Shown here: positions 30,429 to 38,936 of the stretch, in pieces | How the letters are laid out: each line of letters begins with the position of its first letter | How positions within the stretch are numbered: the first letter of the stretch is position 1 | Assembly (NCBI RefSeq): GCF_003713065.1 | Contig: NZ_CP033433.1 | Location: 1,461,001 to 1,525,000, forward strand | DNA: 64,000 nucleotides | Direction of reading: 5' to 3' | DNA from: Cohnella candidum | GTDB taxonomy: Bacteria > Bacillota > Bacilli > Paenibacillales > Paenibacillaceae | The notes under the pieces: generated by a model | Told to the model about the DNA's origin: nothing | The model's database searches: none | The model's input: only the letters and a program-made list of their open reading frames with translations | Made by a program: the position numbers and the translations under genes

Positions 30429-31502
30429 TTGTCCGTTGCGCTGATTACAGGGTCATCCGGTTTGATCGGCTCGGAATGCGTTGAATATTTCGCGGCGCTC
30501 GGGATGGATATCGCAGGCATCGATAACGACATGCGAAAAACCTTCTTCGGGGAAGAAGGCTCGACCGAATGGAATCGGAAGAGGCTTGAAGCGGGTTTAG
30601 GCCATAAATTCATCCACCATACGGCGGATATTCGGGACGAGGCGGAGATCGATCGGATATTCGGAACGTACGGCAACAACATCAGCCTGATCATCCATAC
30701 CGCCGCTCAGCCTTCGCATGACTGGGCCGCCAAGGATCCGCAGCTCGACTTCGGCGTGAATGCCGTCGGCACGTTGAATTTGCTGGAGGCGATGAGGAAG
30801 CATTGCCCCGAGGCCGTGTTTATATTCACCTCGACGAACAAAGTGTACGGCGACACGCCGAACCGGCTGCCCCTGACCGAGCTGCCGCAGCGATGGGAGA
30901 TTGAGCCCGGACATCTTTATGCGGAAGGCATATCGGAAACGATGAGCGTGGACCAGACGATGCATTCCTTGTTCGGGGCTTCCAAGCTTGCGGCGGATTT
31001 GCTCGTTCAGGAATACGGCCGGTATTTCCAAATGAAAACCGCATGCTTCCGCTGCGGGGTGCTGACCGGCTTCCGGCAAGCCGGCGTGGAGCTGCATGGA
31101 TTCATCAACTATCTGGTCAAATGCGCGGCAACCGGAAAGCCGTACACCATCTTCGGATACAAAGGGAAACAGGTGCGAGACGTTATCCATTCGGCCGACA
31201 TAGCCGCCGTCTTCCACGCTTTCTTCGCCCAGCCGAGACGCGGCGGGGAAGTGTATAACTTGGGCGGCGGTCGCGATTCGAACGTCTCCATTCTCGAGGC
31301 GATCGAGCTTGCCGAAAAAATCGCCGGCCGTCCGATGAAAGTGACCTATTCGGAGTCGAACCGGCAAGGCGACCATATTTGGTACGTCTCCGATCTCGGC
31401 AAATTCAAGTCGCATTATCCGGGTTGGAAGATGAAGCGGAGCGTCGCCGACATCATGGAAGAGATTCATGACCAAAACAAAGACCATTGGCAGGAAAGCT
31501 GA
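30429..31502 (+). CDS. NAD-dependent sugar epimerase/dehydratase (extended SDR, RfbE-like)
   Basis: 357 residues. The Rossmann motif [11 protein letters not shown] starts at about residue 7, and conserved SDR blocks TSTNKVYG and GGGRDSN-SILEAI are present. It resembles CDP-paratose/tyvelose 2-epimerase-like enzymes acting on nucleotide sugars. The catalytic YxxxK position reads FGASK, with Phe in place of Tyr, a variant I believe is typical of this subgroup. The TTG start at 30429 follows AAGGAGGGAAGG; an upstream ATG has no such site. It is divergent from the GT2 operon and closed by a terminator, and probably supplies a modified sugar nucleotide for the glycan genes nearby. Confidence 0.85.
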
Positions 31503-31512
31503 GGTTAGATTC

Positions 31513-31560
31513 GAAAGGGCAGAGGGAAACGAAGGTTCCCGGCTGCTCTTTCTGTTTTTC
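31513..31560 (+). terminator. Terminator between the epimerase and the PKS operon
   Basis: GAAAGGGCAG and GGGAA pair with TTCCC and CTGCTCTTTC across a 7-base loop (one wobble), followed by TGTTTTTCC. It separates the glycan genes from the polyketide operon. Confidence 0.75.
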
Positions 31561-31630
31561 CGCGGCATGTATGGCCGGCCTCATTCGTACAATGGAGGTA
31601 GCACTTCTTGTCCGAGAGAGGAGAGCTTAC

Positions 31631-32719
31631 GTGGAACAGTCAGCGATCTGGGGAATCGGCACCGCCGTCCCGGCCTATCGGTTGGACCAACGGGATGCCT
31701 CGTTCCGATTGAAAGAAGCTTTAAAAGAAGATCCCGATCTCGCCAGATGGACGAACCGGATATTCACCCAGTGCGGCGTGGAATCGAGATATACATGCGA
31801 GCCGGACTTGTTGGAGCCTGCGGACCGGTGCCGGTACATTTCCGTTTCCTCCCCGGGTCTAGTGCCGACGACGGAAGAGCGGATGGCGGTCTACCGGAAA
31901 GAAGCGTTTCCTCTCGCACTGGCAGCGGCGAAGCGGGCGCTGTCGGACGGCGGCGTGAGACCCGGCGAGATCACCCACTTGATATCGGTCAGCTGCACGG
32001 GAATGTACCTGCCCGGCTTGGACGCCGAGCTGGCGTGGGAGCTCGATCTCCGTGCCGAAGTCAAACGTATTCCGTTCACTTTCCTGGGCTGCGCGGCCGG
32101 ATTAACGGCGATCCGGGAAGCCGCGCGCATCGTAGGTCATGAACCGGATGCCAAAGTGCTCGTCGTTGCCGTAGAGTTGTGCAGCATCCATATTCAGCCC
32201 TCCTTCGATCGAGAGGATCTTTTCTCTGCGGCTTTATTCGGCGACGGCGCATCGGCGTGCGTCGTCGCGGCATCGGATGGTGGTCAGAGAGGCATGTTCG
32301 AACTGCTTCAATCTACGGTTATGATGCTGCCGAACTCCTCGGAACTCATGCAGTGGTCCATCGGCAATACGGGGTTTCGGTTGCGGCTGTCTCCGAAAAT
32401 ACCGGGGCTGATCGCCGAGCATATTCGCTCTGCCTATCGGGCGTTTTGGGGAGAGGGCGGGCTTCCTTCGCTGTGGGCGATTCACCCGGGAGGCCGGGGG
32501 ATCATCGATTCCGTCCAGAAAGCGATGTCGCTGTCCGATTCACAGGCCGAAGCGAGCCGGACCGTCTTGCGGGATTACGGCAACATGTCTTCCGCGACGA
32601 TTCTGTTCGTACTGGATGAAATTCGGCGGCGAGGAATTCAGGTCCGCGAGGAAGGAATCGCGATCGCGTTCGGCCCGGGTGTTGCGGCGGAATTCATTCG
32701 TTTCCGGTACAGGCCGTGA
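31631..32719 (+). CDS. Type III polyketide synthase (chalcone/stilbene synthase superfamily)
   Basis: 362 residues. It condenses an acyl starter with malonyl-CoA extenders, without an ACP, to give pyrones or resorcinols. The catalytic triad is complete: Cys154 in FLGCAAG, His285 in WAIHPGGRG and Asn318 in YGNMSSAT. The 33-residue His-Asn spacing equals that of plant chalcone synthase. The GTG at 31631 has GAGAGGAG seven bases upstream; an ATG at 31592 coincides with a -10-like TACAAT and is unlikely. Bacterial relatives (BpsA, SrsA) use long-chain fatty acyl starters. It opens a five-gene operon, overlapping the methyltransferase by four bases. Confidence 0.94.
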   Translation: MEQSAIWGIGTAVPAYRLDQRDASFRLKEALKEDPDLARWTNRIFTQCGVESRYTCEPDLLEPADRCRYISVSSPGLVPTTEERMAVYRKEAFPLALAAAKRALSDGGVRPGEITHLISVSCTGMYLPGLDAELAWELDLRAEVKRIPFTFLGCAAGLTAIREAARIVGHEPDAKVLVVAVELCSIHIQPSFDREDLFSAALFGDGASACVVAASDGGQRGMFELLQSTVMMLPNSSELMQWSIGNTGFRLRLSPKIPGLIAEHIRSAYRAFWGEGGLPSLWAIHPGGRGIIDSVQKAMSLSDSQAEASRTVLRDYGNMSSATILFVLDEIRRRGIQVREEGIAIAFGPGVAAEFIRFRYRP

Positions 32720-33453
32720 GCGGGTTTCTGGCGATTCGTTCAACGGAGCCGGAGCGGATGGACGACTTTACGCAAGCAGGGCCTGAGCTGCAGGAAGCGC
32801 TTCGTCATCTCCGGAGATTAAACCGGTGGCTCGGCGCGTCCGGTCCCGTTCTTTACGGAGTGAAACGGTTATGGAAGGCAGCTGGAGCGCCGCGGAATTT
32901 GACGGTGTTGGACGTCGGCTCAGGATCAGGGGACGTCAACCGCGCGGTCTTAAAATGGGCGGAACGGGAGCGCGTGAAACTGAAAGTGATCCTGACGGAC
33001 GTGACGGATGAGGCCCGGATCGAAGCGGAAAGGCTGTTTCGGAACGACCCGCGCGTCTCATTCGTCCGTAAAGATGTCTTCGAGCTGCCGGCCGGCCTGG
33101 CGGATATCGTGACCGCTTCCCAGTTTGCGCACCATTTCGATGCGGATGCTCTGCCGGCATTGGTGCAGAGGTGCATGGACATTTCCCGTTACGGGGCGGT
33201 CATCGGCGACATCCATCGTCATTGGATCGCTTGGACGGCCGTATGGCTGTTCACCCGGATCGTGTCCGCGAACCGATACATCCGGCATGACGGTCCGTTG
33301 TCCGTGGCGAAAGGGTTCCGCAGAGAGGATTTCCTCAAGATCGCCGGGCAGCTGGGTCTCACGGATATGGATTGCCGGTGGAGACCGCTGTTCCGTTATG
33401 CCGTCGCATTCCCTCGTCGAAGGGAGGAACCGGTCGATGGTCAGGGAAACTGA
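32716..33453 (+). CDS. Class I SAM-dependent methyltransferase
   Basis: 245 residues. The SAM-binding motif I is VLDVGSGSGDVN at about residue 60, preceded by a helical N-terminus with RHLRRLNRWLGASG. It probably O- or C-methylates the polyketide product. The GTG start overlaps the PKS stop (GTGA), indicating translational coupling; an ATG at 32758 with GGAG upstream is a possible alternative that would shorten the N-terminus by 14 residues. Unlike BpsB or other ICMT-type enzymes paired with type III PKSs, this is a soluble Rossmann-fold enzyme. The 3' end overlaps the FAD oxidoreductase gene by 17 bases. Confidence 0.88.
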   Translation: MSGFLAIRSTEPERMDDFTQAGPELQEALRHLRRLNRWLGASGPVLYGVKRLWKAAGAPRNLTVLDVGSGSGDVNRAVLKWAERERVKLKVILTDVTDEARIEAERLFRNDPRVSFVRKDVFELPAGLADIVTASQFAHHFDADALPALVQRCMDISRYGAVIGDIHRHWIAWTAVWLFTRIVSANRYIRHDGPLSVAKGFRREDFLKIAGQLGLTDMDCRWRPLFRYAVAFPRRREEPVDGQGN

Positions 33454-34597
33454 CGCGATCGTGATCGGCGCCGGCTTGGCCGGCAGCAGCATGGCGTTCG
33501 CATTGGCGAACGAAGGCTGGGACGTCGTGCTGCTGGATAAAGACAAGTTCCCCCGGCACAAGGCATGCGGGGAATTTCTGTCGCCAGAATCCCTCGCGAC
33601 GCTTCGCTCGCTTGGATTGGACAAAACCGTACAGGCTCTGGAACCCGCGGTGATCACTCAGGTTCGCATCCATACGGAACGAGGGGCTTCTCTCCAAATT
33701 CCGCTGCCGGGTCCCGCTTGGGGAGTGAGCCGGCATGCGTTGGACGCGGAGCTGCAAACCGCGGCGAAGGAGCATGGCGTCACCGTGTTCACGGGAAGTC
33801 CGGTTTCCATGATTGCGGAGGATGGAGACGGTTATCGCGTGGAACTGGGCGGCAAGCGGGGAGGCGATCGCTTCCGTTCCCGGATCGTGATCGGAGCATG
33901 GGGCAGGCAGCCGTTCCCGGAGACTCGTACTTCGCGGAGCGAAGTGAACGCCGCCAAATCGTACGTGGGCATCAAATCCCACTATACGGCGAGGGCGGAG
34001 GATTCCCCGTTCGTCGATCTTTATTTTTTTCGAGGCGGTTATGTCGGCATTGCGCCGGTCGAGGGAAAACGGTTCAATGTGGCCGCGCTCTTGACAAGCC
34101 ATGCGTTAAGAAACCTGGGATCCTCCGCCGCGATCCAGCGAATCGTCGATATGGCGGCAAGGAACGTTCCGGTGATCGGAGAAAGGCTGAAAGGCGCGGA
34201 GCCGATTGCCGGCACGCAGGCCGCTGTCTATCCGGTGAAGGTTCGCCGGGTGCCTCGCGCGTGGAACGGGTTTCCGTGCGTCGGGGACGCCATTGCCGTC
34301 ATTCCGCCTTTCTGCGGGGACGGCATGTCGATGGCGCTGCGTTCGGTGGAGCTCTGCGCGCCCCTGGCGGATGCCTGCTTGAAAGGGAATTGCACGTTGG
34401 AAGAGTGGCGGCAATCCTACTCCCGATTGGTGCGGCAGCAGTTTAGCGGCGCCCTGAGATGGGGCGGCATGCTTGAACGCGCGATGACCCATTCCGTCTT
34501 CTCGTCTTGGCTGCTGCGGTTCGGCATGTTGGCGCCAAAGGCCGCCGAGTTCGCCGTGCGGGCTACGAGATTGAAAACGAAGGGAGAATGGGGATGA
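33437..34597 (+). CDS. FAD-dependent oxidoreductase (geranylgeranyl reductase/monooxygenase-like)
   Basis: 386 residues. The FAD-binding GxGxxG motif is GAGLAGSSMAF at about residue 10, followed by LLDKDKFPRHKACGEFLSPES, a segment typical of geranylgeranyl reductase-like and flavin hydroxylases. The second FAD motif reads CVGDAIAVIPPFCGDGMSMAL at about residues 275-295, with its usual GD. In the phenolic-lipid pathway of Streptomyces a flavoprotein hydroxylase oxidises the ring to a quinone; a similar role here is inference, and double-bond reduction is an alternative. AGGGAGGA precedes the ATG at 33437. A much longer open frame upstream is in the methyltransferase gene and is rejected. It overlaps the KAS gene by four bases. 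Confidence 0.88.
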   Translation: MVRETDAIVIGAGLAGSSMAFALANEGWDVVLLDKDKFPRHKACGEFLSPESLATLRSLGLDKTVQALEPAVITQVRIHTERGASLQIPLPGPAWGVSRHALDAELQTAAKEHGVTVFTGSPVSMIAEDGDGYRVELGGKRGGDRFRSRIVIGAWGRQPFPETRTSRSEVNAAKSYVGIKSHYTARAEDSPFVDLYFFRGGYVGIAPVEGKRFNVAALLTSHALRNLGSSAAIQRIVDMAARNVPVIGERLKGAEPIAGTQAAVYPVKVRRVPRAWNGFPCVGDAIAVIPPFCGDGMSMALRSVELCAPLADACLKGNCTLEEWRQSYSRLVRQQFSGALRWGGMLERAMTHSVFSSWLLRFGMLAPKAAEFAVRATRLKTKGEWG

Positions 34598-35829
34598 GAA
34601 ACCGCGTCGTGATTACCGGCATGGGCTGCGTCACTCCGCTCGGGTTGGACAAAGAGACTTCTTGGCGCAGCGCGGCGAGCGGCATTTGCGGCATTCGGCG
34701 GCTCGCGCCAGAGCGTGCGGAGCAGCTGCCGGTGCGGCTGGCCGCGGAAATTCCGGATTTCGACCCGCACGTTTATATGGACGCGAAGGAAGCGAGACGG
34801 ACGGACCGATTCATCCAGCTCGCGATCGCGGCAGCCGAAGAAGCGATACGGGACAGCGGACTGGCGATTGGCCGCAACGCGGATCCTGAGCGCACGGGGG
34901 TGTGGATCGGAAGCGGTGCGGGGGGCATCCGAACGTTCGAAAAAGGCATGCTGGAGGTGCTTCAACGCGGATACCGCCGAATGTCGCCTTTCGCGCTGCC
35001 GATGTTCCTTCCCAACATGGCGGCGAGCCGGGTTGCGATCCGCCATGGCATCCGCGGCCCCGCGAATTGCTCCGTCACGGCTTGCGCCTCAGGCACTAAC
35101 TCGATCGGGGAAGCGTTCCGAGCCATTCAACGCGGCGAAGCGGACGTTATGCTCGCGGGAGGAGCGGAAGCGCCAATATGCTCGATTGGTCTGGCTTCTT
35201 TTGCCGCCATGGGAGCTTTGTCGGCGAGCGATGATCCTGCCGAAGGATGCCGTCCGTTCGACAAAGGCAGGAACGGATTCGTCATGGGAGAAGGCGCGGG
35301 CGTTCTCGTCCTGGAGTCTCTGCTGCATGCGAGGGAGCGAGGGGCCGACATCTACGCGGAATTGCTCGGTTTCGGATCGTGCGGGGATGGCTTCCATGTC
35401 GCGGCGCCGCGTCCGGACGGCAGCGATTGGAGCCGGGCCATGTCGCTGGCGCTTGAGGACGCCGGTCTTGCGCCGAAGGACATTGCCTACATCAACGCGC
35501 ACGGAACCGGCACGCCGCAAGGCGATCTCGTCGAGACCCGAGCCATTAAACAGGCGTTCGGCGTATGGGCTTACGACGTCAGCGTCAGTTCCACGAAATC
35601 GGCGAGCGGCCATTTGCTGGGCGCATCCGGCGCGGTGGAAGCGATCTTCTCCGTCTTGGCGCTTCGGGATCAGATCATTCCGCCGACGATCCACTTCCGG
35701 GAATATGACGATGAGCTGGATTTGCACTATACGCCGAATCTCCCGAGACGCAAGACGATCCGGGCGGCCATGTCCAATACGTTCGCCTTCGGCGGCCATA
35801 ATGCCGTTCTCGTGTTCGGATCGTTATGA
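34594..35829 (+). CDS. Beta-ketoacyl-[acyl carrier protein] synthase, FabF-like
   Basis: 411 residues. The Cys-His-His triad is intact: Cys164 in TACASGTNS, His303 in NAHGTGT and His340 in SGHLLGASGA, with Lys335, at numbers almost identical to E. coli FabF (163/303/340). It therefore should elongate ACP-bound acyl chains. No ACP gene lies in the operon, so it must use the housekeeping ACP or another carrier. The ATG at 34594 overlaps the preceding stop (ATGA) with AAGGGAGA upstream. A role in tailoring the acyl starter for the type III PKS, or in condensing its product, is inference from co-location. Confidence 0.92.
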   Translation: MRNRVVITGMGCVTPLGLDKETSWRSAASGICGIRRLAPERAEQLPVRLAAEIPDFDPHVYMDAKEARRTDRFIQLAIAAAEEAIRDSGLAIGRNADPERTGVWIGSGAGGIRTFEKGMLEVLQRGYRRMSPFALPMFLPNMAASRVAIRHGIRGPANCSVTACASGTNSIGEAFRAIQRGEADVMLAGGAEAPICSIGLASFAAMGALSASDDPAEGCRPFDKGRNGFVMGEGAGVLVLESLLHARERGADIYAELLGFGSCGDGFHVAAPRPDGSDWSRAMSLALEDAGLAPKDIAYINAHGTGTPQGDLVETRAIKQAFGVWAYDVSVSSTKSASGHLLGASGAVEAIFSVLALRDQIIPPTIHFREYDDELDLHYTPNLPRRKTIRAAMSNTFAFGGHNAVLVFGSL

Positions 35830-37895
35830 AGGGTCGATCCATCGCGTTGTTCTCGATCCGGCATCGCCGGCGGATCGTCGGCTGCTGGCTGGTGTTAGCG
35901 GGATTGTGCTCCTGGTTTGCCGCTCATCTTCCGGACGTGCTGGGCGATCACGGTCTTGTAACGAATGGGCAATACGCGGAAGTCCAAAAGCGGTTGTCCC
36001 GCGAGTTTCATATGCCGGACGAGCCTGTCATCCTGCTGTTCGATCGCGGAAGCGATGAGAGGAGACAGGGGTTTCACGATGACCTGCGGAACTTTCTAGC
36101 GCGCGTCGAACGGATCGATGGCGTAGATGTGGCGGCTTCGCCGCTGAAGCGCAAAGGAATGGAGAAGGATAACGCCGCTTACGCGTTGGTTTCGCTTAAC
36201 GGTTCTCTCCGAGAAAGACGGAAAGAAATCGAAGAGATCAGGCGTGAGATTACGGTTTCGCATTCGATGAAAATCAGGATGACGGGTAAGCCTGTCGTTC
36301 AGGAAGACGTGAACCGATCCAGCAAGCGGGACATGAAGGCGGCGGAGTCGGTCGGACTTCCGGTCGCCTTTGCGCTGTTGGCGTGGACCTTCGGCGGGGT
36401 CGGGGCTGCGCTGATTCCCCTCTTGGCGGGCGGCTTGTCCGTGCTGATCGCCATGGGAATCATGTACGGCATCGGCGCTATGGGATTGCTGTCGTTGTCC
36501 GTCTTTGTTCATAACGTGATTCCGATGGCGGGAATGGCGGTATCGATCGATTTCGCCCTGTTGATGGTCAGCCGTTATCGCGAGGAGAGGAAGGAGCTTA
36601 GGCCAAGCGAAGCCGTCATTCGAACCGTGAAGACCTCCGGCCGAGCGGTCGCAACTTCCGTGCTTTGCGTCATTCTGGCTTTGGCTGGCACGCTCGCGAT
36701 ACGGATGCCGATATTCCAAAGCGTCGCATTGGCGGCGATCGTCGTGCTCCTCGTCTCGGCGTTCGTGAATATGACGCTTGTTCCCGCGCTCTTATACCTT
36801 TTCGATGTTCGGATAACTTTTCGGCAAACCCGCTCACGATCCGAAGCTCATCGCGGATGGGATGTCTTGATTCGCGGCGTGTTGGGGAGGCCGTTCTTCG
36901 GAATGGTGCTTTCGCTGATCGTTCTAACCCTCTTGCTGATTCCCGTCCGCGGCCTGAACTTGGACATCCCCGGACCCGACTCATTACCTAAAGGCACGGA
37001 TTCGCGAGAGGCAGCGGCGACGTTCGATGCGTTATTTAAGCCTCCGGGAGTAACTCAAGTGTTACTTCTCGTGGATGAGAAGGCGGATCCGTCCGGAAGG
37101 CGGGCAGGGGCTGACTCGGACAAGCTCCGGCTGATTTTGGAACGGGACGAGAGAGTTGCGAAGGTAGAAGCCGTGCGCTCTCCGCTGCGGAAAGAAGTGA
37201 CCTTATTAACGGTCTGGCTGAACGGCAACGACGCTTCGGACGCTGTTATGCGCTGGGTGAGAGACTTAGAGTTAAAATTAACAACGTTAAATGTATCGAT
37301 CGGGGGCGAGGCGAAATATCGTCAAGAAGTCCACGATGAGATATTTAATCGGATTAAATATGTACTGATTTTCGTAGGAGCGTCTAATTTCATCGTATTG
37401 GCCTGGGCCTTCCGTTCCCTGGTGATTCCCGTTAAAGCGATCGCGATGAATGGGCTCAGCATCGGCGCGTCATACGGCATTCTCGCTTGGCTGTTCCCAA
37501 CGGGGCGGTTGGGACTGCAGCCGACCGACATCGCCATCATGATCCCCGTCTTTATTTTCGGACTGGCTTTCGGGATCAGCATGGATTACGGGATTTTCCT
37601 GTTGTCGCGGATTAACGAGAGTTACCGGGGAACAGGGGACAACGACCGGGCGATTCGGGAAGGAATGTCCTCTTCAAGCCGGATCATCACATCCGCTGCG
37701 GCGATCATGATCGCGGTTACCTTGCCGTTCGCTTTGGCCGACGTGAGCGGAGTGAAGCAATTGGGCATCGGAATCGCCGGCGCACTGTTTATTGACGCTA
37801 CGGTTATCCGCCTGATTCTCGTTCCTTCGCTGATGAAGCTGTTCGGAAAATGGAATTGGTGGATGCCGTTCTCCGGTCGAACTTTCCCTCATTGA
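35826..37895 (+). CDS. MMPL/RND-family lipid transporter
   Basis: 689 residues with about 12 membrane segments in two repeats, each preceded by a large extracytoplasmic domain (about 35-175 and 380-500). The proton-relay Asp-Tyr/Asp-Phe motifs appear as SIDFALLMVSRYREE in the first half and SMDYGIFLLSRINES in the second. MMPL proteins export lipids and polyketide-lipid conjugates. The ATG overlaps the KAS stop by four bases (ATGA), so it is translated from the same operon. It most likely moves the polyketide lipid into or across the membrane. The protein has no extra N-terminal domain; GC and codon use match its neighbours. Confidence 0.92.
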   Translation: MKGRSIALFSIRHRRRIVGCWLVLAGLCSWFAAHLPDVLGDHGLVTNGQYAEVQKRLSREFHMPDEPVILLFDRGSDERRQGFHDDLRNFLARVERIDGVDVAASPLKRKGMEKDNAAYALVSLNGSLRERRKEIEEIRREITVSHSMKIRMTGKPVVQEDVNRSSKRDMKAAESVGLPVAFALLAWTFGGVGAALIPLLAGGLSVLIAMGIMYGIGAMGLLSLSVFVHNVIPMAGMAVSIDFALLMVSRYREERKELRPSEAVIRTVKTSGRAVATSVLCVILALAGTLAIRMPIFQSVALAAIVVLLVSAFVNMTLVPALLYLFDVRITFRQTRSRSEAHRGWDVLIRGVLGRPFFGMVLSLIVLTLLLIPVRGLNLDIPGPDSLPKGTDSREAAATFDALFKPPGVTQVLLLVDEKADPSGRRAGADSDKLRLILERDERVAKVEAVRSPLRKEVTLLTVWLNGNDASDAVMRWVRDLELKLTTLNVSIGGEAKYRQEVHDEIFNRIKYVLIFVGASNFIVLAWAFRSLVIPVKAIAMNGLSIGASYGILAWLFPTGRLGLQPTDIAIMIPVFIFGLAFGISMDYGIFLLSRINESYRGTGDNDRAIREGMSSSSRIITSAAAIMIAVTLPFALADVSGVKQLGIGIAGALFIDATVIRLILVPSLMKLFGKWNWWMPFSGRTFPH

Positions 37896-37921
37896 CCGCG
37901 AAAGACGCCGGTTCGTATAAT
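37892..37921 (+). promoter_or_regulatory. Strong sigma A-type promoter of the MDR oxidoreductase
   Basis: TTGACC (37892-37897), 18 bases, TATAAT (37916-37921). The -35 overlaps the MMPL stop codon, so the next gene has its own promoter and the PKS operon ends here without an evident terminator. Confidence 0.7.
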
Positions 37922-37961
37922 CTTACGCAAAGGCTGGAATGATCTGCGAGGAGACAACGAG

Positions 37962-38936
37962 ATGCTGGCGATGGTATGCGCGAAATACAGAACGTTGGAT
38001 GATGCCCTCAAGCTGAGAGAGGTGGACAAGCCCGTTCCCAAGGACGATGAAGTACTCATCAAGGTTTACGCTTCCTCGATCAATTCATGGGATTGGGATC
38101 TCATTAGAGGCAAGCCGTTAATCACAAGGCTCGGGGGACTGACGAAACCGCCGTATCCGATTCTCGGGGCGGACGTTGCGGGACGCGTGGAAGCGGTTGG
38201 CCGCAAGGTTAAAAGGCTCCGGCCTGGCGACGAAGTGCTCGGGGACGTATCGGGCTGCGGATGGGGCGGGTTCGCGGAGTATGTTTGCGCGCGCGAACAC
38301 GTCCTGTCGCCGAAACCGGCCGGGATGACCTTTGAGCAGGCGGCGTCGATCCCGCAGGCGTCCGTGCTCGCGCTGCAAGGCCTTCGCGACAAAGGCCGCA
38401 TTCGCCGGGGGATGCAGGTTTTAATCAATGGCGCAGGTGGAGGCGTTGGAACGTTTGCCGTGCAAATCGCCCGATATTTCGGAGCGGAAGTGACCGGAGT
38501 GGACAGGGGCGACAAATTGGAACTGATTCGTTCCCTCGGTGCCCGCCGCGCGGTAGATTATCGCAAGGAAGACATCACGATTGGGGAGCGGCGTTATGAC
38601 CTCATCCTCGACGTGGCGGGATACCGGTCCGTTTTCGATTGGAAACGCGTCTTGAATCCCCGGGGAATCTACGTGATGCTCGGAGGGTCGATGGGACGAA
38701 TCGGCCAAACGATACTGGCCGGACCGTGGATATCGTTGTCGGGCGGCGGAAGAATGGGGGTCCTGTTCCACAAGCCGAAACGGGAGGATCAGCAATTCGT
38801 GACGGAACTTTGCGAGTCGGGCCGAATCCAGCCGGTGATCGACAGGACTTATCCGCTGACCGGCGTCGCCGAAGCGCTGCGGTATCTCGGGGAAGGTCAT
38901 GTCAAAGGCAAAGTCGTCATCCGCATGGACGTTTAG
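37962..38936 (+). CDS. MDR-family NAD(P)-dependent oxidoreductase (quinone oxidoreductase-like)
   Basis: 324 residues. The alcohol dehydrogenase-like N-terminal half has the GADVAGRVEAVG segment at about residue 67, and the Rossmann motif is GAGGGVGTFAVQIARYFGAEV at about 153. No zinc-ligand cysteine cluster is present, so it belongs to the quinone oxidoreductase/enoyl reductase branch. Substrate unknown; electrophile detoxification is common for such proteins. GAGGAGAC precedes the ATG. Its stop overlaps the convergent TetR gene by four bases. Confidence 0.88.
   Translation: MLAMVCAKYRTLDDALKLREVDKPVPKDDEVLIKVYASSINSWDWDLIRGKPLITRLGGLTKPPYPILGADVAGRVEAVGRKVKRLRPGDEVLGDVSGCGWGGFAEYVCAREHVLSPKPAGMTFEQAASIPQASVLALQGLRDKGRIRRGMQVLINGAGGGVGTFAVQIARYFGAEVTGVDRGDKLELIRSLGARRAVDYRKEDITIGERRYDLILDVAGYRSVFDWKRVLNPRGIYVMLGGSMGRIGQTILAGPWISLSGGGRMGVLFHKPKREDQQFVTELCESGRIQPVIDRTYPLTGVAEALRYLGEGHVKGKVVIRMDV

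Follow-up and report, generated by a model that had tools for sequence, protein, structure and literature searches.

A stretch of 64,000 nucleotides from the chromosome of Cohnella candidum (NZ_CP033433.1, positions 1,461,001 to 1,525,000; hereafter the window) holds, at positions 31,631 to 37,895, five overlapping genes for a type III polyketide synthase (PKS), a methyltransferase (MT), a flavin adenine dinucleotide (FAD)-dependent oxidoreductase, a FabF-type ketosynthase (KAS) and an MMPL-family exporter. Reading product, KAS function, direction of transport and timing from the sequence, we infer, with somewhat better than even confidence, that these genes serve the synthesis and export of a tailored phenolic lipid, probably during sporulation, and that the KAS sets the starter chain. 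The PKS-MT-FAD core is of a known kind, and the novelty would lie in the added KAS, the MMPL exporter and the likely mother-cell control.

Operon structure and the dedicated ketosynthase

The initial annotation, made from the letters alone, had described five genes overlapping at every junction, and its coordinates, overlaps and family assignments are borne out by the window reading and by Pfam and NCBIfam scans of all five gene products. All are on the forward strand. The PKS (HidC/SrsA-like; 31631..32719; 362 aa; Chal_sti_synt N and C domains) begins at a GTG preceded by a purine-rich ribosome-binding site, and its triad Cys154-His285-Asn318 is invariant in 116/116 aligned copies, two duplicate records included. 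It is followed by a class I S-adenosylmethionine (SAM)-dependent MT (HidA-like; 32716..33453; GTG start, 245 aa; Methyltransf_25) with a SAM motif, whose best NCBIfam match, NF004851, scores under its cut-off, and by an FAD-dependent oxidoreductase or monooxygenase-like protein (HidB-like; 33437..34597; ATG start, 386 aa; FAD_binding_3/geranylgeranyl-reductase superfamily) with a Rossmann motif. The operon-specific FabF-type KAS (34594..35829; ATG start, 411 aa; TIGR03150) and the MMPL-family exporter of the RND superfamily (35826..37895; ATG start, 689 aa; PF03176 at 254 bits; best solved relative MmpL3) complete the series. The overlaps amount to 4, 17, 4 and 4 bases (PKS-MT, MT-FAD, FAD-KAS and KAS-MMPL). 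With starts estimated by script, the PKS-MT overlap is kept in 17/17 operons compared, and the FAD-KAS overlap occurs in the window only, gaps of 13-39 bp being found in the other nine KAS operons.

An operon-encoded acyl carrier protein (ACP) or thioesterase was rejected, as the initial annotation had it, neither gene being found in the operon among the open reading frames (ORFs) of the window or by domain scans. The single PP-binding (ACP) match in the whole genome (1045787-1045990) adjoins another FabF gene (1046087-1047307). The operon probably ends at MMPL, as hinted by a sigma-A-like site (TTGACC-18-TATAAT, 37892-37921, 11/12 consensus positions) that overlaps the MMPL stop ahead of the next gene, a zinc-type dehydrogenase at 37962; the site is the only one in 31200-38200, where shuffles expect 2.0.

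The KAS scores 564 bits against TIGR03150 (cut-off 493.75), and the triad Cys164-His303-His340, which had been called catalytically intact, is present in the window and in 10/10 operon KAS aligned. Three KAS of the FabF type are encoded in the genome, namely that of the operon, one beside the ACP and a third copy. The ten operon copies group together as a single clade (100/98) in a tree of 32 KAS, and all other copies, housekeeping FabF included, fall outside it. KAS of at least 65% identity turned up in 11 genomes, that of the window among them, when 60 relatives, 245 genomes of the family and 392 of the order (sets that overlap) were searched, and 11/11 lie inside the same five-gene order; the figure is a lower bound, since no more than 7 or 4 preliminary candidates per genome were scored in the larger searches, and counts P. 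eucommiae (G375, whose L246 matches L025) once. One of the 11, G323 from another family, was found after the KAS-operon rule had been formed. A dedicated KAS found only inside the five-gene operon, in the genomes searched, is new. The sole further match under the identity cut-off, the KAS of G046 (54%), is the nearest non-operon relative and lies outside such an operon; as a functional clue it was uninformative, standing alone behind a gene resembling a short-chain dehydrogenase/reductase (named by eye). A KAS hidden elsewhere in two KAS-less near relatives was likewise rejected, the best matches in G001 and G013 reaching only 50-52%.

By our own criterion, 35 alignment columns separate the operon KAS from 14 housekeeping FabF. 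Position 109 is Val or Ala in the operon copies and Ile in the housekeeping set, and we take it, counting from the active Cys, to be I108 of Escherichia coli FabF. Position 134 is Ala in the operon copies (Ser in G323) and Phe in the 14 housekeeping enzymes. The gate reads AFGG in 10/10 operon KAS and in G323, and carries a Gly hinge (GFGG) in 14/14 housekeeping FabF and in five second copies. Loop 2 resembles that of FabF structures presumably of Listeria and S. aureus type, to judge from their entry codes; Phe115 (versus Trp) was dropped as evidence because Phe also occurs in those structures. In FabF, I108 has been assigned to both the gate and the pocket, and Asp265, a position occupied by Glu in 8/10 operon copies, is described as coupling one gate loop to the other (PMC7138838; for this and the other papers cited, excerpts are the source). 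Taken together, the KAS appears to be a functional FabF whose acyl site is roomier and gated differently, and the simplest reading is that it supplies an unusual starter chain.

Spread among relatives and the coupled exporter

Neighbourhoods were read in a first set of 37 loci (the window, 30 from relatives and 6 named Paenibacillus) and in a second set of 80 family loci, two of which belong to first-set genomes (L188=L026, L214=L028). A PKS at least 52% identical to that of the window occurs in 30/60 relatives, and some PKS match, weak FabH-like matches included, in 150/245 family genomes. MT and FAD matches follow the PKS in 36/37 first-set loci, the remaining one (L027) ending at a contig edge; in L125 and L130 such matches are spread over several frames. 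The second set comprises 59/80 loci with PKS, MT and FAD genes, 17/80 in which MMPL directly follows PKS without MT or FAD, 3/80 with PKS and MT only (L163 of these at a contig end) and one (L213) with the trio plus a reversed, weak MMPL relative upstream. The operon, its order and its catalytic residues thus recur in relatives, as the gene-order check proposed with the initial annotation had asked, and the refuting conditions set there, scattered genes or lost residues, do not overturn that reading.

The KAS was found in 10/37 first-set and 0/80 second-set loci (L163 and L177 run into contig ends). Since it was found in 11 genomes only and PKS-MT-FAD groups without it are common, the KAS is not part of the core. 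Within the PKS clade of the window, L108 and L112 lack it, MMPL following FAD after 44 and 28 bp.

The exporter gene stands behind the PKS group in 25/37 first-set and 41/80 second-set loci, the latter count requiring at least 42% identity to the nearest reference copy and excluding L191 (24%) and the reversed L213 (25%); L177 of that set reaches a contig end. Its transmembrane aspartates Asp242 and Asp587 are invariant in 66/66 aligned copies. MMPL therefore accompanies PKS more widely than KAS does, and because it stays there even without MT and FAD (17/80), a PKS-derived lipid presumably leaves the cell; this linkage is the best evidence that the exported molecule is such a lipid. The coupling of MMPL to a type III PKS locus appears to be new. 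In one literature library, judged by titles and abstract starts, no paper on a type III PKS with MMPL was found, none joined type III PKS, methyltransferase, MMPL and Paenibacillus, and none joined hierridin, type III PKS and Firmicutes; a query for type III PKS, Paenibacillus and alkylresorcinol reached a paper on antiSMASH hits, seen in excerpt.

Several other arrangements were observed around these loci. The 17 PKS-MMPL loci without MT or FAD are L144-L146, L148-L151, L153, L154, L156-L159, L162, L164, L166 and L169, and at least three such genomes (G253, G115, G157) additionally encode another PKS that is accompanied by MT and FAD. An FAD-Rieske oxidoreductase (DAO plus Rieske domains in the L109 copy scanned) lies behind MMPL in L103, L106, L107, L109, L110, L111, L028 (=L214) and L201, and before PKS in L120, L122, L023, L024 and L179; as an operon member it was rejected for the window, whose genome carries it twice at other sites (59% and 53%). 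A gene of ~660 aa resembling lipoteichoic acid synthase (named by eye) adjoins the PKS group in L115, L116, L121, L123, L126 and L131, and L160 has a transposase-like ORF (also named by eye) between FAD and MMPL, 3201 to ~4290 from the PKS start. In the loci lacking MMPL, clustering of neighbours judged by eye gave no common alternative exporter behind FAD.

Promoter and sporulation signals

A SigE-like promoter (GCATGTA, spacer 14, CGTACAAT; 31565..31593, + strand) with 11/14 consensus positions lies 66 bp before the PKS start. Between the two is a conserved CTTGTCC box (31607..31613, + strand), whose reverse complement GGACAAG resembles a SpoIIID box. The box is exact in 11/12 upstream regions (those of the ten KAS operons, L108 and L112) and occurs in 23/114 PKS upstream regions overall, where the rate in whole loci gives an expectation of 0.024 per 200 bp.

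For the wider comparison, the 160 bp upstream of PKS were scanned for sigma-factor consensus sites. In a first scan of 116 PKS upstream regions against five shuffles, SigE-like sites of at least 12/14 were found in 13 (0-2 in shuffles); the excess was minimal for SigK (99 versus 89-95), small for SigG (71 versus 44-59) and absent for SigA, SigF and SigH. In a comparison with 380 other upstream regions of these loci, defined by computed ORF starts and with SigE spacers of 12-15 allowed, SigE-like sites of at least 11/14 were enriched (41/114 versus 50/380; Fisher 1.9e-7), as were those of at least 12/14 (13/114 versus 4/380; 3e-6), and SigA-like sites of at least 9/12 were rarer at PKS (20/114 versus 134/380). 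The SigE excess persists with the PKS set thinned at 75% identity (25-30 of 56-57) and compared with unthinned controls. The spacer is exactly 14 in 38/41 of the PKS sites, the spoIVA and spoIIIAA sites of the same genome score 13/14 with a spacer of 13, and the site of the late-found G323 scores 13. The operon is thus probably under SigE control in the mother cell, and the SigE-type signal before PKS, enriched over controls and weak in the window itself, would be a new feature. Likely sporulation control did not figure in the initial annotation and is added here.

Proposed product, alternatives and known systems

In the pathway that we favor, the KAS, with the ACP of the cell and ordinary fatty-acid enzymes, would lengthen or alter an acyl-ACP and so set the side chain. 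The type III PKS would take the acyl group, add three malonyl units and close a resorcinol ring by aldol condensation, and the class I MT and the FAD enzyme would methylate and hydroxylate or oxidize that ring, yielding a methoxy-phenol, hydroquinone or quinone; the lipid would thus be a long-chain alkylresorcinol in methylated and oxidized form. MMPL would then move the lipid out of the cytoplasmic leaflet. With SigE in the mother cell as the probable driver of transcription, the product would most likely be deposited in the forming spore or around it.

The ring chemistry is suggested by the match of the PKS-MT-FAD order and families to hid-like operons, by the products of related trios (see below) and by the affinities of the PKS. 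In a tree of 96 PKS, 72 from the order of the window make up a single clade (SH-aLRT 99), which groups with hid-like, not BpsA-like, enzymes; the tree was made by a quick method with SH-aLRT support and no bootstrap, and cyanobacterial hid-like loci stand in for HidC, the LEGE 06113 HidC record being left out. This grouping bears on the possibility of an alkyl-alpha-pyrone operon of the BpsAB kind acting as a sporulation signal, a reading that has some appeal, given that sporulating cells raise bpsA expression and the resulting alkylpyrones delay sporulation (PMC5686519), and that type III PKS often yield pyrone by-products. We consider it quite unlikely, since the BpsA-like clade, drawn from other families of the order, is far from the PKS of the window (branch 3.03), and BpsA-like PKS are followed by an ICMT methyltransferase (one protein scanned) with no MT, FAD, KAS or MMPL match beside them. 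Furthermore, Trp282, three residues before the catalytic His, is Trp in 114/116 PKS of the order and in 17/20 other outside rows, versus Phe or Tyr in all four BpsA-like rows; Trp at position 281 of ArsB, to which Trp282 may correspond, has been tied to resorcinol over pyrone formation (PMC9927152). Of the products proposed in the initial annotation, a phenolic lipid or quinone, with added KAS and lipid-type exporter, still stands. The place of the PKS among hid-like enzymes, and not in the ICMT-linked BpsA-like clade, makes it less likely that the main product is a pyrone.

A respiratory polyketide quinone, in which the trio would make a membrane quinone as alternate electron carrier and MMPL would only flip or balance it, fits the SigE-like promoter before the PKS, and pkqABC of mycobacteria, with the same PKS-MT-oxidoreductase order, is reported to make just such a carrier, the corresponding Streptomyces operon being switched on in spores (PMC9927152). 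This seems unlikely to us, for the exporter adjoins PKS in over half of the sampled loci and is present also without MT and FAD, which argues for export and not for a membrane-kept quinone. The KAS could alternatively be a self-protecting second copy of the FabF target, with the operon product inhibiting fatty-acid synthesis: a duplicated FabF sits in a biosynthetic operon, its catalytic residues are intact while those of pocket and gate differ, and two other FabF copies exist elsewhere in the genome. No such inhibitor is known to us. Most relatives, including L108 and L112 of the window's own PKS clade, keep PKS-MT-FAD, with or without MMPL, and do without the operon KAS, so that no protection would be generally needed, and this explanation appears improbable.

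Several observations weigh against the exported, SigE-controlled phenolic lipid with a KAS-set chain. A spacer of 13 separates the elements of the genome's known SigE sites, against mostly 14 at the PKS sites, spoIID of the same genome has no SigE-like match, and the window itself scores only 11/14, a value reached by 13% of controls; moreover, 7/12 loci of the KAS group, and all 17 PKS-MMPL loci, score 9-10, none of the latter reaching 11. The KAS is absent in 26/36 informative first-set loci and in 80/80 second-set loci, and since all of these keep PKS, it would be dispensable for the basic product. Its distribution needs three changes on the PKS tree (P. eucommiae branches separately, and KAS is missing from L108 and L112), so gain, loss or transfer are all possible. 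Val109 is not confined to the operon KAS, since G046 and part of the second FabF copies share it and position 134 is Leu/Val or Thr in those enzymes, leaving only the hinge Ala private to operon KAS in the compared set, and a G399A E. coli FabF crosslinked much like wild type (PMC7138838). In the PKS, Leu127 (115/116) replaces the Ala of 20/24 outside enzymes, so its tunnel may differ from theirs. Finally, the best solved relatives of the FAD profile are flavin halogenases, which makes ring hydroxylation by this enzyme uncertain. The motif WxWxIP, which we take to mark flavin-dependent halogenases, occurs in 0/96 FAD proteins (the window and homologues in fetched loci). The halogenase-like relatives deserve notice, as hierridin C is chlorinated by a step that its describers report as unknown (PMC8086630).

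If the phenolic-lipid reading is true, a SigE-linked, exporter-coupled operon across Paenibacillaceae would make a role in the endospore directly testable, and the operon-only KAS offers a clean case for asking how bacteria set chain length when a type III PKS has no ACP of its own. As a more speculative and tentative extension, many Paenibacillaceae might coat or impregnate their endospores with a phenolic lipid or quinone that is made in the mother cell under SigE control and pumped by MMPL, perhaps across the outer forespore membrane, one lineage adding a ketosynthase for an unusual, longer or unsaturated chain. Phenolic lipids belong to Azotobacter cysts (PMC5916927, PMC5686519) and related quinones to Streptomyces spores (PMC9927152), and such a coating would be the endospore counterpart of the former.

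Compared with known systems, the operon KAS shares Ala at the gate hinge (Gly399 of E. coli FabF) with the type II polyene ketosynthases ApeO and Iga11 (PMC7138838); unlike them, that of the window is over the TIGR03150 cut-off and has no chain-length factor, ACP, ketoreductase or dehydratase partner in the operon. With bpsAB of Bacillus subtilis, which is associated with sporulation (PMC5686519), the operon has in common a Firmicute type III PKS with a methyltransferase and a probable link to sporulation. By its sequence, however, the window operon is not the BpsAB system, as BpsA-like relatives in the order belong to another PKS clade, with an ICMT methyltransferase (L136) and no FAD, KAS or MMPL match beside it. 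A methylmalonyl-CoA mutase-like protein of ~515-560 aa (named by eye), which might supply methylmalonyl-CoA, is encoded in L133-L137 after the BpsA-like PKS and a short gene, the latter of ICMT type in L136. The initial annotation did not recognize the operon as a described Firmicute system; its trio is known from cyanobacteria and planctomycetes as the hid operon.

The parallel drawn earlier with srsABC holds for the order of PKS, MT and FAD oxidoreductase. SrsB is an ICMT-type membrane methyltransferase, unlike the class I Methyltransf_25 enzyme of the window, and this difference had been taken as a departure from known systems; it is none, because two cyanobacterial hid-like loci (Cyanobium L044 and Synechococcales L036) carry MT and FAD proteins of the same top families (NF004851 and TIGR02032), ~28-32% identical to those of the window, with all six scores under the curated cut-offs. 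A soluble class I MT is, on this sequence comparison, ordinary for the hid-like branch. The order is also that of pkqABC in Mycobacterium smegmatis and Streptomyces sp. MNU77 (PMC9927152), and the hid-type trio is comparable in function to both srsABC and pkqABC. The srs of Streptomyces griseus and the pkq trios yield methylated alkylquinones, and excerpts of their published descriptions mention no KAS or MMPL (PMC9927152, PMC8730385).

The hierridin operon hidABC of cyanobacteria exists in two orders, one being hidC>hidA>hidB (PMC8086630). The PKS of a three-gene operon from Planctomycetota made pentadecyl- and heptadecylresorcinols in Corynebacterium glutamicum, and co-expression of the Gimesia maris MT and FAD genes with PKS gave one extra methyl group on the resorcinols (PMC10896814). 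What separates the operon of the window from these is the KAS, the MMPL exporter and the SigE-type promoter; KAS and MMPL had no match at E <= 1e-4 in 74 non-Paenibacillus loci (some short), many of which have MT and FAD adjoining PKS. In its core, the five-gene set resembles the hid operons of Cyanobium, other cyanobacteria and Planctomycetota, combining a type III PKS with an NF004851-type MT and an FAD protein of the geranylgeranyl-reductase superfamily, and its PKS falls in the hid-like group of the tree and not in that of the BpsA-like enzymes.

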